Below, one piece after another: positions 20,873 to 56,617 of a stretch of DNA of 64,000 nt. Under the pieces are notes generated by a model, which had not been told where the DNA came from, ran no database searches, and saw only the letters and a list, made by a program, of their open reading frames with translations. The translations under genes and the position numbers were made by a program. The DNA comes from a bacterium (GTDB taxonomy: Bacteria > CAIWAD01), in contig JAUXWS010000013.1 in the NCBI GenBank assembly GCA_030685015.1, positions 1-64,000 on the forward strand, read 5' to 3'. Position 1 is the first letter of the stretch. Each line of letters begins with the position of its first letter.

Positions 20873-21688
20873 TCACTCGTCGACGGCCATCAGCTGCCCG
20901 CCCTCCTTGCGGATGGACTCCTCCGTGCGGCGGTTCATGACAAGAATGGTGATGCGGCGGTTCATGGGATCCTCGGGCCGGTCCGGCAGCAGCAGGGCGG
21001 TGGAGGCGAGACCCACCACACGCCCGATCTTGCGGGGGTCCAGGCCGCCGCGCAGCATCTCCCGCCGCGCCGTGTTGGCGCGGTCGGTGGACAGCTCCCA
21101 GTTGGTGTAAGTGGGTGAGCCATAGGGCAGGGCGTCCGTGTGGCCGCTGATGCTGATGCGGTTGGGCACGGTGGAGATGACCGTGGCCAACTCCCGCAGC
21201 AGCTCCTGGGCGCCCGGCTCCAGGGTGGAGCTGCCCAGGGCGAACATGAAGCGCGCCTCCTTGTCCATCACCTGGATGCGCACTCCCTCGGGGGTCATCG
21301 CCACGTCGATGCGATCCCTGAACTGTTTCATGGCCTCGCTGGTGTTGATGGCGTCCTTGATCTGCGCCTCCAGCTGTTCCAGCCGCTGTTGGTCCCGCAT
21401 GCCGCCCAGCCCTTCCTCGTCCGTCCCCCCCTCGCCGATGCCCGGCTCGGTGCCGGTGACGCCCTGGGAGCCTCCCAGGTCGACGGCATAGGGGTTGTTG
21501 AAGTAGCCCGAAATGGCCGCCTTCTCCTGGTCCGTGGCCTGGTTGAGGATCCAGAGCAGGAGGAAGAAGGCCATCATGGCGGTGGCGAAGTCGGCGAAGG
21601 CCACTTTCCAGGAGCCGCCGTGATGTCCGTGACCGGCGACGATGCGCTTGATGATGATGGGCTGTTCGGCCTGTTTCTGGTCCGCCAT
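20873..21688 (-). CDS. motB: flagellar motor stator protein MotB (OmpA-like domain)
   Basis: A 271-residue inner-membrane protein with one transmembrane helix (about 32-50) preceded by the MotB signature W-K-V-A-F-A-D-F-A-T-A-M-M-A-F, in which the proton-carrying Asp sits. The plug and linker follow, then an OmpA-type peptidoglycan-binding domain (G-H-T-D-A, about 183-187, and N-R-R-I-T). It anchors the stator to the wall. It starts 3 nt after motA. No other flagellar genes are in the window. Confidence 0.93.
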   Translation of the reverse strand: MADQKQAEQPIIIKRIVAGHGHHGGSWKVAFADFATAMMAFFLLLWILNQATDQEKAAISGYFNNPYAVDLGGSQGVTGTEPGIGEGGTDEEGLGGMRDQQRLEQLEAQIKDAINTSEAMKQFRDRIDVAMTPEGVRIQVMDKEARFMFALGSSTLEPGAQELLRELATVISTVPNRISISGHTDALPYGSPTYTNWELSTDRANTARREMLRGGLDPRKIGRVVGLASTALLLPDRPEDPMNRRITILVMNRRTEESIRKEGGQLMAVDE

Positions 21689-21691
21689 GGC

Positions 21692-22552
21692 CTATTCCTT
21701 CTTGCTGCCGCGCAGGAAGGCGCTCAACTCCTCGAAGCTGGGGCGGACGGCCGGGGGCACGGTCTTGCGCCCGAACTCCAGGGCGATCTGCGGCGCGTAG
21801 CCCTGGAGGCTGGCCATGAAGCAGGTCTTGATCGCCGTGTACCAGTCCGCCTCCTCCCGGGCCCGCCGCTCCAGGGAGTTGCTGAGCGGTCCGAACACGC
21901 CATAGGCGAAGAGGATGCCCATGAAGGTGCCGATGAGGGCGACGGCCACCTTGTGCCCGATCTCCTCGGCCTCGCCGCCCAGGGAGCCCATGGTGATGAC
22001 GATGCCCAGCACGGCGGCCACGATGCCGAAACCGGGGAGGGCGTCGGCCACGCGGCTCACCGCCTGGGCCGGCTGCTCGGCCTCGTGATGGTGCGTGCTC
22101 AGCTCCACGTCCATCAGGTTTTCCAGTTGGAAGGTGTTCATGCTGCCGCTCACGACCAGGCGCAGGTAGTCCTGGATGAACTCGATGGTGTGGTGGTTCT
22201 GGAGCAGCTTGGGATACTTGGAGAAGATCTCGCTGCTCTCGGGATTGCCGATGTCCTGCTCGATGGCCACGAGGCCCTGGCGGCGGATCTTGTTGAAGAC
22301 GTCGCCCATCATGGCGAAGAGCTGGAGGTAGTCGTCCTTGCCGTGGAGGTCTCCCTTGAGCAGGGAGGGTATGGAGCTGAGCACCCTCTTCAGGACGGAG
22401 AAGGGGTTGGCGATGATCATGGCGCCGAACGCGGCGCCGCCCAGGATGAGCAGCTCCACCGGCTGCCAGAGCACGCCGATGTGGCCGCCCTCGAGCACGA
22501 AGCCCGTGACGACGCAACCGAAAACCACCACCAGACCGATGATCAGGTTCAC
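21692..22552 (-). CDS. motA: flagellar motor stator protein MotA
   Basis: A 286-residue inner-membrane protein with four helices: two N-terminal (about 3-22 and 30-50) and two C-terminal (about 148-170 and 185-205), separated by a large cytoplasmic loop that contacts FliG. The motif G-G-x-x-F-G-A-M in helix 2 and the P-G-F-G-I-V-A-A-V-L-G segment in helix 3 are typical. The start is GTG 22552 with AGGAGG 6 nt upstream. Ion specificity is not decided here. A palindromic repeat occupies most of the upstream gap. Confidence 0.93.
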   Translation of the reverse strand: MNLIIGLVVVFGCVVTGFVLEGGHIGVLWQPVELLILGGAAFGAMIIANPFSVLKRVLSSIPSLLKGDLHGKDDYLQLFAMMGDVFNKIRRQGLVAIEQDIGNPESSEIFSKYPKLLQNHHTIEFIQDYLRLVVSGSMNTFQLENLMDVELSTHHHEAEQPAQAVSRVADALPGFGIVAAVLGIVITMGSLGGEAEEIGHKVAVALIGTFMGILFAYGVFGPLSNSLERRAREEADWYTAIKTCFMASLQGYAPQIALEFGRKTVPPAVRPSFEELSAFLRGSKKE

Positions 22553-22597
22553 GCCAAGCCTCCTGCACCCTCACTCTTGCCGGTACATCCAGTGCCA

Positions 22598-22762
22598 AGC
22601 AGCCTGTCGGACTTGGCCACTTGGCGGTCTACATCGCCCCAATCGGTCCGGATTTTCCGCAATTTTCTTGAACAGACCACCAGTATGCCCTGCGAAAATT
22701 CCGAAAAACCGGCCTCGATTGGGGCGCGAATCCCATCCAAGGCCCAAGCCCGACAGGCTGCT
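22598..22762 (-). repeat. 165-bp palindromic element, copy A
   Basis: The ends are a perfect 13-bp inverted repeat (AGCAGCCTGTCGG at 22598 and its complement ending at 22762), extended imperfectly inward through a TTGGCC-type stretch. Internal arms (GCCCCAATCG near 22637 and CGATTGGGGC near 22717) and an AATTTTC-type inner arm pair as well, so the whole unit can fold into one long hairpin with its apex near 22675-22690. It is less GC-rich than its surroundings. A homologous unit of 166 bp lies at 40095-40260. It fills the gap between the NYN-like gene and motA. Confidence 0.8.
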
Positions 22763-22795
22763 AGTTTCCCGAGTGCCGACATGCCGTCATGATCG

Positions 22796-34813: not shown

Positions 34814-34839
34814 CTGTCAGCCTGTCGGACCTGGCCGGC
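34814..34839. repeat. solo end resembling the 165-bp palindrome terminus
   Basis: The bases CAGCCTGTCGGACCTGGCC at about 34819-34837 match the end of copy A (22600-22618) in all but one position. There is no second arm, so it is either a remnant or a chance match. It lies exactly in the short gap between two convergent genes. Confidence 0.35.
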
Positions 34840-35973
34840 TCAGTCGGATTCCAGGCGCCAGCGCAGTCCCAGGCCGGCACGCAGCACCTCGAAATCCTTG
34901 ACGCGGGAGATGCCGCCCCAGGCCGCCTCGCTGTCCCGCCACTCGCGCTCCACCACCGGGATGAGGGTGAGGGAGGCGCCAAGGGCGAGGCGTCCGCGCA
35001 GGCTGAGCAGGATGCGGCGGTCGTGGCGGCCGTAGTGGAAGGGATCCTGCAGCTCGCCCAGGCGGCTCTGGTACCAGCGGTCGCGCAGGGTCAGCCCGGC
35101 GTCCAGGCCGGCCGCCCGCGTTCCCCAGCGGCCGCTCCAGCCCAATGAGAGGCTGTACTGGTCCTCCTGGTGGCTGCCGTCGCCGCCTTCGCTGTCCACG
35201 CCCAGATTCACCGTGCCCACGCCCTGGCTCCCCGTGTAGCCCACATTGTGGGTGTCGCTGAAGCGCCAACCCAGCCCGGCGCTGAGGCCGGCCGGCATGC
35301 GCCAGCCGAGGTCCAGACCCAGGGACCACGCCTCCCCGTCATACTCGGTGAACCAGGGATTGTAGGACTCCCGGTCCCAGGCCGCGCTGAGCGAGAGGCC
35401 CGGCTGGCGCAGCCAGGGTCCACGATCCGGGCCGCGGGCCTTGAGCACCAGCTCGATCTGGTCGCTGTCGAAGGTGGCGCCCCGTTCGGCGCCTGTGTCG
35501 CGGTCCAGGAAGCGGCGGATGTAGTAGTTGTCCAGGGTGCGCCAGTTCAGCTCCGTGCCCCAGCCAGGGCGGGGCTGCCAGGCGCCGCTCAGCCGGTGGC
35601 TGGCGTAGGTGTTGGCCGGGCTGCCCTCGTACTGTGTCCACTTGCCGTCCCAGCTCAGGCTGAGACGACCCTGGCCGGGGCGGCCGCCCGCCCATCTCTG
35701 CAGGGCGGCGAAGGGCCCCTGGCGGGAGCGCAGGCGCCACTGGAGAGCGAGGCCCAGGCGGTGGTCGACCCGCAGGGCGCCCGCCCCCTCCACATCCGGC
35801 TGGAAGGAGGGGTCCCGTTTCAACCGGCTGCGGTCGCTGTCCGACAGGCGCAGGATGTTGTCGTCGGCGACCAGGCGCTCCTCAAGGCTGATCGTCCAAT
35901 CCGGCGCATGCCAGGCGGCCATCGCCGGCAGGGCGATCGCCAGCAGGGCGATGAGATGCAGGACGCGCCGCAC
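34840..35973 (-). CDS. predicted outer-membrane beta-barrel of the pgs cluster
   Basis: A 377-residue protein not matched to a named family. It has a cleavable signal peptide (L-I-A-L-L-A-I-A-L-P-A-M-A, about 7-19) and then alternating hydrophobic/polar strands rich in W, Y and G up to the C-terminus (L-R-W-R-L), as in outer-membrane porins. It starts at GTG 35973, directly after the preceding stop. It is the last of five leftward genes beginning with pgsB, which suggests a role in moving poly-gamma-glutamate across, or fixing it to, the outer membrane. That role is inferred from context only. Confidence 0.65.
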   Translation of the reverse strand: MRRVLHLIALLAIALPAMAAWHAPDWTISLEERLVADDNILRLSDSDRSRLKRDPSFQPDVEGAGALRVDHRLGLALQWRLRSRQGPFAALQRWAGGRPGQGRLSLSWDGKWTQYEGSPANTYASHRLSGAWQPRPGWGTELNWRTLDNYYIRRFLDRDTGAERGATFDSDQIELVLKARGPDRGPWLRQPGLSLSAAWDRESYNPWFTEYDGEAWSLGLDLGWRMPAGLSAGLGWRFSDTHNVGYTGSQGVGTVNLGVDSEGGDGSHQEDQYSLSLGWSGRWGTRAAGLDAGLTLRDRWYQSRLGELQDPFHYGRHDRRILLSLRGRLALGASLTLIPVVEREWRDSEAAWGGISRVKDFEVLRAGLGLRWRLESD

Positions 35974-38173: not shown

Positions 38174-38618
38174 GGAAGATTTCCCCCCCCGTCACGAGCA
38201 TGAGCAGCAGCCGCACGCAGGAGGCCACCAGCAGCAGGCAGAGCAGGGTCTTGACCACGCCCTGCTTGTCCATCCAGTTGGAGATGAGGCCGGGGATGAT
38301 GAAGCCCACCGCCTGCATCTGCAAATCCACGCCAAAAAGGTCGTAGAAGGTGGACTGCCGGGAGAAGTAGCCCAGCACGAAACCGATGAGGATGGAGAGG
38401 ACGAGGCGGCGCCGGCCGTAGATGAACATCACCAGGGAGAGGCCCCGGATGATGCCGAAGGTGGCGAAGCTGACAAGGAAGGTGCCCAACAGGCGCAGGG
38501 GATCGTGCATCTGCAGGGCCACGTAGCCGGGCACGACGATGCCGCCGGCCGAGACGCCGATCACCTCCTGGAAGATCATGCTGAGGATCACTCCCAGGCC
38601 GACGCTGATTTCGATCAT
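38166..38618 (-). CDS. pgsC: poly-gamma-glutamate synthase membrane subunit PgsC
   Basis: A 150-residue protein of four to five membrane helices, with the conserved opening G-L-x-L-S-x-x-x-x-E and G-G-I-V-V-P-G-Y (about 25-32) and the central R-R-x-x-L-S-I-L-I-G-F (about 70-80). It partners PgsB in the membrane-bound synthase. ATG 38618 overlaps pgsB (ATGA). Length is normal for PgsC/CapC. Confidence 0.9.
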   Translation of the reverse strand: MIEISVGLGVILSMIFQEVIGVSAGGIVVPGYVALQMHDPLRLLGTFLVSFATFGIIRGLSLVMFIYGRRRLVLSILIGFVLGYFSRQSTFYDLFGVDLQMQAVGFIIPGLISNWMDKQGVVKTLLCLLLVASCVRLLLMLVTGGEIFHV

Positions 38619-39781
38619 GCCGCACTCCTGTCGCGGAAGTAATGGGCCACCTCATGACCGCCGCCGTGGACGTTGCCGATCCCCATCACCGTCATGACGG
38701 GGAAGGGCAGGTTGATCACGGTGTTGAAGGTCAGCTCCGGATGGACCGTCCCCAGATTGACCACCTTCTCCTGGGGCAGGCCCATGCGGTAGCAGACGCC
38801 CAGCAGCTTGTCCGTCACCTCGCCGATGAGGATGAGGCGCTCCCAGGCCGTGTCCTGGTGCACCATCTCCACCAGCTGCTCGCTGCGCTCGAAGCGGTCC
38901 TTGCGGGTGTTGAGGATGAAGACGGTGGCGCCGGGGTTGTCCTGCACGCCCGTCACGCGCTGCCAGATGGCCAGCGTGCTCTCGGGGTCGTTGGCGGCCA
39001 GCGCGTTGACGAAGGTGACGTGGCGTCCCTCGTGCTCCAGGCAGTACTTCTTGAGGGCGCCGCAGTCCGGCGCCGCGCGGTACATGCCCTCCAGCGCCAC
39101 CTCCCGCCCGATCCCGACCTGGGCGGCGACAGCCAGGGCCAGGGCCACGTTCTCCTTGTGCTCGATGTAACTGAAGGGGCGCATGTCCTCGTCGCTCACG
39201 TCGTGGTCGACCACCTCGTGGAGGACGGTGCCGCGCTGGGCGGCCTCCCGCTTCATCAGGGCGAAGAGCTTGTGCTCGCAGGTGAAGGCCACCTTGCCCA
39301 CGGGCAGCGTGTTGCAGAGGCTGCGCGCCACGTTCTCCACGGTGGGGCCCATCTCCCGCAGGTGGTCGGGCCGGGCGTTGGTGATGACCCCGATGGTGGA
39401 GCGGACCATGCGGTGCTCGGCGATCCACTGGTACTCCGGCTGGACGGCCATGCATTCGATGACCAGGGCGCGGGGCCCACGACGGGCGGCATAGGCGACG
39501 ACGCGGGTCTGCTCGATGATGTTGGCCCCGCGCGGCCGGACGATGGGAATCTCGGAGCCGTCCTCAAGGATGACCTGCGGCGCGCTGCCCGTGGTCTTGG
39601 CGATGGTGGCCAGGCCCCCCGCCCGCAGGGCGCCGGCGACCAACCGCGTGACGCTCGACTTGCCGCGGGTTCCGTTGACGTGGATGCGAATGGGAATGGA
39701 GCGGAGGTGCCGCTGATGCCGCCTATACTCGAAAATGCCCAATGCGATGATCAACAAAAGCAGCAAAGCGATGATGGTCAT
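38615..39781 (-). CDS. pgsB: poly-gamma-glutamate synthase ligase subunit PgsB
   Basis: A 388-residue ATP-dependent amide ligase of the Mur-ligase/FPGS type that polymerises glutamate through gamma-amide bonds. After an N-terminal membrane anchor (M-T-I-I-A-L-L-L-L-L-I, residues 1-11) come the P-loop H-V-N-G-T-R-G-K-S-S-V-T (about 34-45), T-N-A-R-P-D-H-L (about 133-140) and N-A-L-A-A-N-D-P-E-S-T (about 263-273). I start at ATG 39781, where the anchor begins; a longer frame adds an unrelated Pro/Arg-rich stretch. It is the first gene of the pgs operon. Confidence 0.92.
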   Translation of the reverse strand: MTIIALLLLLIIALGIFEYRRHQRHLRSIPIRIHVNGTRGKSSVTRLVAGALRAGGLATIAKTTGSAPQVILEDGSEIPIVRPRGANIIEQTRVVAYAARRGPRALVIECMAVQPEYQWIAEHRMVRSTIGVITNARPDHLREMGPTVENVARSLCNTLPVGKVAFTCEHKLFALMKREAAQRGTVLHEVVDHDVSDEDMRPFSYIEHKENVALALAVAAQVGIGREVALEGMYRAAPDCGALKKYCLEHEGRHVTFVNALAANDPESTLAIWQRVTGVQDNPGATVFILNTRKDRFERSEQLVEMVHQDTAWERLILIGEVTDKLLGVCYRMGLPQEKVVNLGTVHPELTFNTVINLPFPVMTVMGIGNVHGGGHEVAHYFRDRSAA

Positions 39782-40094
39782 ACACGTTCCGGACTTGATC
39801 CCCCTGGCGCCTTCCGCCGGCCCAGGCCGTCTCCACGCCAGCCTGGCGCGGGGGGGATGGGGGGCGGAGCATGTGAGCAAAAGCGTTCCAGCAAGCACAA
39901 ATCAAGCCAGAACAGCTTGATGACACGGTGGACAATGTCGGAAAGATCGGCAGGCGAAGCATCAGGCCCCTGCGGGCAATTCCCCATGTCTATCAACCAG
40001 TTGACTGGAACAAGATCCTGATGCGTGAACGGCCCGTCCGCCGGAGGCGCCGACGGCCCCATGGATCCATGTCTGGAATTCTTGTCAGAGCGTC

Positions 40095-40260
40095 TGGCAG
40101 CCTGTCAGGCTTGGACCTTCGCTGGGATTCGCGCACATCTCGAGACCGGTCTTACGAAGATTTCGCGGCGCATACTGGTGGTATGTGCGAGAAAGCTGCG
40201 GAGCATCCAGGCCGATTGAGGCGATGAGGACCACGAGGTGTCCAAACCCGACAATCAGTG
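40095..40260 (+). repeat. 165-bp palindromic element, copy B
   Basis: Colinear with copy A (22598-22762, opposite strand) over its whole 166 bp; about three quarters of bases are identical by eye. The apex is a perfect CATAC-TGGTG-GTATG hairpin; the ends GGCAGCCTGTCAGG and CCGACAATCAGT are a decayed inverted repeat. Translating both copies gives a similar peptide, but differences over the shared frame fall 11/6/10 on codon positions 1/2/3, so there is no sign of selection on a protein. Confidence 0.78.
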
Positions 40261-40377
40261 GACAGAATCTCGTGGAAAGGTCGGGTGATGAAGCCACCAC
40301 ACCGGCCATCGCAAAGCCGCTGACCCGCTGGCGCAGGGGTGCTTGGTCAAGCGGCAGCAACGCGGCGTTGGCCCGCC
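40256..40377 (+). repeat. partial relative of the 54.5-kb repeat
   Basis: Begins at the right end of palindrome copy B and aligns with 54549-54668 (same strand), sharing GTGGAC-x-GA-x-TCTCGTG, GTCGG-x-TGATGA, GGCGCAG, GTCAAG and GCAACGCGGCG in the same order with only short gaps. The far inverted end seen at 54767 is missing here, so it looks truncated. Confidence 0.65.
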
Positions 40378-56452: not shown

Positions 56453-56484
56453 GACCCGTCCCTGATTCTTTCCCAGTCGAACGT

Positions 56485-56556
56485 TGTAGGGGTGCCGTAA
56501 CTGGCTGAGAGCATACCCTCCGAACCTGATCCGGATAATGCCGGCGCAGGGAACAG
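56485..56556 (+). promoter_or_regulatory. TPP riboswitch aptamer (THI element)
   Basis: The conserved bases are all present in order: GGGGTGCC, CTGAGAG, ATACCC, GAACCTGAT, GGATAATGCC and GCAGGGAA. CCTTCC (56564-56569), shortly after the aptamer, can pair with GGAAGG (56609-56614), which overlaps the ribosome site of the TonB receptor, suggesting control of translation start. TPP binding would lower expression of the receptor. Confidence 0.95.
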
Positions 56557-56617
56557 CGGAATTCCTTCCCCAGCCCGTCCCGTTACCGCGCCCTTTCTCG
56601 CCCAAGGAGGAAGGTCC

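Follow-up and report, generated by a model that had tools for sequence, protein, structure and literature searches.

The locus raises the question of what two similar palindromic units between the genes of the window, by which we mean the whole stretch of 64,000 nucleotides that was analysed, represent: the original prediction left the choice between a dispersed mobile element and a structured RNA family. The units themselves are real, but the edges first assigned to them overran by 2-3 bp into the flanks; with borders set by the ends found in relatives, copy A occupies 22600-22760 and copy B 40098-40258, 161 bp each. The two lie in opposite orientation and are 78% identical over 160 bp, in keeping with the three quarters identity first noted, and the perfect outer 13-bp inverted repeat of copy A was confirmed by reading. 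Its terminal arms (22598-22616 and 22744-22762, 19 nt) are 95% complementary, and as RNA (plus strand, 22598-22762) copy A folds at -80.8 kcal/mol with a z of -7.7, which none of 200 shuffles equalled. The long hairpin that had been expected of both units is strong in copy A but weak in copy B, where the full-length minus strand gives a z of -1.1 and the inner part gives -1.3 on the plus strand and +0.3 on the minus strand; the apex hairpin of copy B, CATAC..GTATG, is intact. The features are listed below, with scores from the models R1 and R2.

22596-22599, no strand: 4-bp flank of copy A, CAAG, a degenerate version of the CTAG-type target (read letters and flank statistics)
22600-22760, minus strand: copy A element; the better-folding, "forward" strand is the minus strand (R1 133.7 bits minus, 64.6 plus; R2 85.1 minus, 44.1 plus)
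22600-22616, plus strand: terminal inverted repeat (TIR) of copy A, one end, CAGCCTGTCGGACTTGG; the motif is also found at the ends of IS1182 elements
22635-22667, no strand: inner arm 1 of the copy A hairpin (33 nt), 79% complementary to 22694-22726
22694-22726, no strand: inner arm 2 of the copy A hairpin, pairing with 22635-22667
22744-22760, minus strand: TIR of copy A, other end, CAGCCTGTCGGGCTTGG (inverted-repeat and TIR pattern search)
22761-22764, no strand: 4-bp flank of copy A, CTAG (read letters and flank statistics)
34818-34876, no strand: possible but doubtful solo-end remnant, a short hairpin with one good TIR (R1 14.2 bits, E 0.03)
40094-40097, no strand: flank of copy B, CTGG; the opposite flank, 40259-40262, is TGGA
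40098-40258, plus strand: copy B, older, decayed and opposite to copy A; forward is the plus strand (R1 79.6 bits plus, 15.9 minus; R2 44.4 bits)

Copy A begins 47 bp upstream of the start of motA (21692-22552, minus strand), with window positions 22553-22599 between them, and motB lies at 20873-21688 on the same strand; from this position directly upstream of motA, the element may alter the expression of motility genes. Copy B lies upstream of pgsB (38615-39898, minus strand, TIGR04012). Neither copy, nor the element at any of 12 further loci, matched an Rfam family; that search of the window and the 12 loci found only tRNAs and a TPP riboswitch (window 56478-56569, plus strand, 73 bits).

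The element is not confined to these two copies. A blastn search with copy A, in which split matches and reverse-strand palindrome matches were merged, gave about 40 places in its own genome (3.61 Mb, 105 contigs), and the expectation of a dispersed element with many copies was thereby borne out. About 20 of these places are 93-98% identical to copy A, which suggests that the family amplified recently in this genome; the remainder are 69-91% identical or are fragments. The TIR pattern, with up to three mismatches, matched the genome 85 times against once for the reversed pattern, and 29 TIR pairs could be formed; most of them have a common spacing, and a second group is longer by about 21 bp. 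A subfamily of about 182 bp, further diverged from copy A and of ambiguous orientation, is present on five contigs (C49, C50, C51, C73 and C80). Some elements adjoin the end of another element with one CTAG common to both (L005, L006, L154 and L293), giving tandem arrays and the palindrome CCGACAGGCTGCTAGCAGCCTGTCGG, and two (L019 on C36 and L090 on C104) are interrupted by another repeat that ends in GAGCYTATCCGTRAATA.

Across the genus 44 distinct copies were read. One same-genus genome, G002, contains elements of its own, many of which carry the variant end GAGTCTGTCGG, whereas the other, G001, gave two weak matches and G003 none. Contig ends in G002 that fall about 50 bp inside an element were considered as possible IS ends; we rejected this and read them as assembly breaks. 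A genome from the window's class (G004) carries elements with another end variant.

Comparison with the two same-genus genomes indicates that the elements are insertions. In G001 and G002 alike, the neighbours that flank copy A and copy B here have neither copy between them. At the site of copy A, the region to the left and part of the next gene are conserved, and the gap is element-free and shorter by 140 and 173 bp, respectively; at the site of copy B it is shorter by 250 bp in G001 and by 161 bp in G002, although in both genomes the intergenic DNA is too diverged for a base-exact placing of the empty site. Three Extensimonas species compared with each other provided six insertions with clean empty counterparts. 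These empty sites align at the junction free of gaps once one flanking 4-mer is removed, which means that insertion adds the element plus 4 bp, and the target-site duplication that a mobile element would be expected to leave was in this sense found at all six. The filled sites have CTAG on both sides in five of six cases (CTGG and CGGG in the remaining one), whereas the empty 4-mers are CTAG once, CCAG twice, and CGAG, ACAG and CTGG once each. Since the empty 4-mers are often not CTAG though the filled sites are, the duplication either does not always simply copy the target or has decayed since: CTAG targets may be lost quickly, or the element may bring its own CTAG along. More widely, both flanks are CTAG in 69 of 123 elements from other taxa and in 12 of 42 from the genus, and the left flank equals the right in 74 of 123 and 14 of 42. 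Where the flanks are not CTAG, left and right agree no more often than after permutation (5 of 54 identical, p 0.81; 2 of 30 in the window's own genus, p 0.82).

The ends point to the mover. They consist of CAGCCTGTCGGRCTT with a 4-bp CTAG-type flank, and so do those of ISAzo1-type IS1182 elements, nine of which were read at both ends. Searching viral contigs for the end motif gave 14 stretches, and one of them (L231) holds a pair of TIRs 1.5 kb apart with CTAG on both sides and an ORF of 454 aa inside, which encodes an IS1182-family transposase (NF033551, 363 bits against a cut-off of 270; Pfam DDE_Tnp_1, DDE_Tnp_1_6 and DUF772). The same arrangement of TIR pair and CTAG around an IS1182 transposase is found in Pseudomonas aestuarii (L241) and Extensimonas perlucida (L242), and IS1182 copies with an element-type end and one end at a contig border are found at L243 and in G004 (L246/L299). 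The TIR variant of G002's elements also ends an IS1182 fragment in G004. Among plasmids, 1004 records hold a related transposase (E up to 1e-40), and seven were taken for end reading; six copies (L351-L354, L356 and L357), including ISAzo1 of Aromatoleum aromaticum with CAGCGTGTCGGACT, have element-type ends and CTAG on both sides, and the seventh has one such end only. An unbiased inverted-repeat search recovered identical ends on the plasmid copies.

These insertion sequences resemble the elements of their own genome over about 15 bp and no further, and models R1 and R2 match none of the IS loci searched. Judged from these sequence comparisons, the interior is not an internal-deletion product of IS1182, and only the terminal 15 bp or so are common to both. 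A transposase with matching ends, for which the original prediction proposed to look, is present in other genomes and on plasmids, but a transposase search found none with such ends in the draft genome of the window. That genome has one good IS1182 copy (C43), which is 27% identical to the query and at whose ends no matching inverted repeats were seen, plus a weak partial match. Seven of the 12 genomes searched for the transposase matched at all, four of these had a copy beside the right end, and several element-rich genomes had no IS1182 or distant relatives only. Draft assemblies lose repeats, so this absence is weak evidence. A 1.7-kb split copy on contig C28 was considered as an autonomous parent and rejected, as it is an element interrupted by an insertion sequence (L031, G000 C28:14400-16750) with a 467-aa ORF, a 5-bp duplication, TTGAA, and ends that we take to be IS1380-like. 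We conclude that the element is a MITE, non-autonomous and very probably moved in trans by an IS1182 transposase.

The family extends well beyond the genus. Two 11-bp ends lying 125-155 bp apart were found in at least 119 stretches of the genome collection (loci L108-L226), mainly from Beta- and Gammaproteobacteria and deltaproteobacterial groups; the interior and the length of about 160 bp recur in Beta- and Gammaproteobacteria, in deltaproteobacterial lineages and in the window's own phylum. Of the 79 representatives from other taxa, 66 measure 159-161 bp, within the 147-177 bp to which the search pattern itself was limited. With up to one mismatch and on both strands, the end motif occurs 222 times in Endozoicomonas sp. 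ISHI1, 161 times in Extensimonas perlucida and 145 times in Marinobacterium profundum, against 0-3 occurrences per strand for the reversed control. Of the 14 genomes searched, 13 matched, and TIR counts imply up to about 110 elements per genome.

Similarity of ends and similarity of interior can be told apart with R2, a model built from 51 elements, none of which comes from the window's phylum. Six elements that have only the ends in common (L147, L169, L175, L184, L209 and L221) score 31-36 bits on the better strand and 25-33 bits on the other; as both strands score at this baseline, we do not count Planctomycetota and Lentisphaerae, whose records are among these TIR-only ones, as holders of the family. 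Copy A scores 85.1 bits on the forward strand and 44.1 bits on the other, and by these sequence scores it is kin to the wide family through its interior. Two elements of G004 (L297 and L298), which had no part in the model, reach 100-107 bits. Copy B, at 44.4 bits, is not far above the TIR-only baseline, and the other copies of the genus range from 25 to 81 bits, with two (L042 and L050) unmatched at E 0.01; the kinship of copy B and of the lower-scoring genus copies rests mainly on their likeness to copy A. A contig from a Verrucomicrobiales MAG (L194) gives 98 bits, but L194 is itself part of model R1 and may be mis-binned. When copy A, or the element of L115 or L128, served as DNA query against collections of plasmids, phages and E. 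coli, a single copy came up in all, on a plasmid (L358), and R2 scores it at 120 bits; we regard the short matches to phages, at E 0.5, as chance hits.

The fold was studied on 100 representatives at 93% identity, drawn from 187 extracted places of which 168 are distinct, and 74 of them entered alignment A2. Left out were nine of the 21 representatives from the window's own genus, because they belong to the 182-bp class, are ambiguous in orientation or align poorly. Among the 79 others 17 were left out, four for falling under the similarity cut and 13 for length or alignment; of these 17, eight scored 97-116 bits with R1, six are TIR-only elements, and three (L120:2048, L156:2276 and L178:4909) are without R1 score or match. 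Orientation was assigned by similarity to L115, a rule that set L113 the wrong way. Alignment A3 retains 51 of the 62 non-genus rows of A2, the other 11 having been dropped as misaligned, near-duplicate or doubtful. RNAalifold on the 74 aligned elements gave 51 pairs, 43 of which have at least one double change, and the compensatory changes anticipated for a structured element are thus present. Paired cells amount to 91.7%, against 71.9% in shuffles (0 of 500) and at most 46.7% for slid structures, and double-change cells to 755 against 242 in shuffles, in a test that favours the structure because it was derived from the same alignment. The same internal fold recurs in distantly related bacteria, and the fold itself therefore probably matters, though the covariation could partly arise from palindrome-correcting mutation.

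This last point leads to the first alternative, that the hairpin is not selected at all and that we are dealing with an ordinary IS1182 MITE whose interior drifts. Long palindromes are known to get corrected by template switching at replication forks, and arms that correct each other in this way would covary in every helix, as all arm helices of the element do. After correction, however, neither strand is more perfect than the other, yet among the 100 representatives the forward strand is the better folder of the two in 92 (19 of 21 from the genus, 73 of 79 from elsewhere), counts that are not independent trials because the representatives are related. The forward strand also has the lower z in 75 of 100, with a mean of -9.6 against -8.0; it is rich in G (31% G, 24% C), for which the shuffles allow. 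At consensus pairs G-U outnumbers A-C (333 to 75 cells, a ratio inflated by the program that picked the pairs, which allows G-U), G-A outnumbers U-C (85 to 33) and G-G outnumbers C-C (67 to 15). Further points against drift are the largely unpaired AGCGA/GCAG motif, nearly invariant in 51 aligned elements, and the narrow length range noted above. We therefore think it improbable that the hairpin is unselected. The strand-specific fold suggests selection on a defined single strand, and we lean towards selection as RNA first, with no fixed cis role. The genes around the elements have no bias in orientation (19 ++, 22 --, 18 +- and 12 -+, from naive ORFs), which speaks against a simple cis role as a terminator; a count of elements inside a long ORF (31 of 89) was set aside, as it depends on naive ORF calls in GC-rich DNA.

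A second alternative is that the likeness to IS1182 ends is coincidental and that the element is moved by something else, such as a REP-associated tyrosine transposase that acts on hairpins. Its palindromic form and the many genomes that have no matching IS1182 would fit such a mover; against it stand the end of about 15 bp and the CTAG flank common to nine IS1182 elements, together with the clean empty sites with their 4-bp gain, and we regard it as very improbable. That the copies are chromosomal structured RNA genes (a host sRNA or cis-regulator) and not a transposon is scarcely credible, given how many elements a genome can hold, that the orthologous sites in G001 and G002 are empty, that the flanks are of CTAG type and the ends those of IS1182, and that some elements directly abut the end of another, even though strong covariation and strand asymmetry are what an RNA gene family would show.

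In our view it is thus highly likely that the two units belong to a large MITE family of about 161 bp, moved by IS1182, whose hairpin is selected as a single strand, and that, as part of this same reading, copy A is a young insertion and copy B an old, decayed one. An IS1182 transposase of the ISAzo1 kind would bind the common ends of about 15 bp and move the short element in trans, duplicating 4 bp at a CTAG-like target. The interior is a long hairpin whose motifs, length and base pairing are conserved across distant bacteria. It would be selected in single-stranded form, most probably as RNA made from the forward strand and, with lower probability, as single-stranded DNA in replication or transposition. 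A hairpin selected in this way would help the element to spread or to be tolerated. Of the two alternatives that the original prediction named, mobile element and structured RNA family, both gain support, with the structure predicted and its action as RNA inferred. We also offer, tentatively, a bolder version that may well prove wrong: the element could be an ancient gene-less lineage of its own that borrows any ISAzo1-type IS1182 transposase through its 15-bp end, has crossed phyla, and has a strand-specific core (the AGCGA/GCAG internal loop) acting as RNA or single-stranded DNA. If this were the case, the element would be a satellite-like structured parasite of an insertion-sequence family, and its CTAG flank would possibly be carried in rather than copied from the target.

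That MITEs are moved by IS1182 is already known, by the available part of the account of MITEPye1 from Paracoccus yeei (PMC11578231). MITEPye1 is the closest published case by description: it has 159 bp, no ORF, 18-bp IS1182-like ends (those of ISPye18) and 4-bp direct repeats, and it is intergenic and forms a long stem-loop, but it is given for one species with 1-3 copies per chromosome, and that part of the account reports no interior family, covariation or strand asymmetry (PMC11578231). ISAzo1 and related IS1182 share the terminal 15 bp or so and CTAG-type flanks with the element, but are about 1.5-1.6 kb long, encode a transposase and have no interior similarity to it. The available parts of the sources point to three further systems. 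YPAL or RU-2 of Yersinia is likewise palindromic, about 167-168 bp long and present in many intergenic copies (PMC2759123; PMC2267715); RU-2 differs in being enterobacterial and in its terminal sequence at the start (PMC2759123), and the parts available name no IS1182 parent (PMC2759123; PMC2267715). Chunjie of Geobacter uraniireducens, likened here by description, is a high-copy deltaproteobacterial MITE but differs in its length of 178-235 bp (PMC10969869), and the R-family of P. fluorescens, also likened by description, comprises MITE-like intergenic Pseudomonas repeats of 50-352 bp (PMC2718517). In general, as far as the available part of one source goes, MITEs often have less than 20 bp in common with their IS (PMC3852290). 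In the open-access literature the end sequence was found only in papers with unrelated titles, and we found no element design there with conserved interior, length and a covarying strand-specific fold across distant bacteria.

Bacterial MITEs are mostly viewed as local, short-lived remnants of one IS. Here one design, comprising length, ends, covarying fold and strand preference, recurs at high copy number in distant bacteria, and a likely helper can be named. It can thereby be tested whether selection acts on the hairpins of bacterial repeats at the level of RNA, of single-stranded DNA or at no level, and the covariance model can now be used to annotate many intergenic repeats that have so far gone without annotation.
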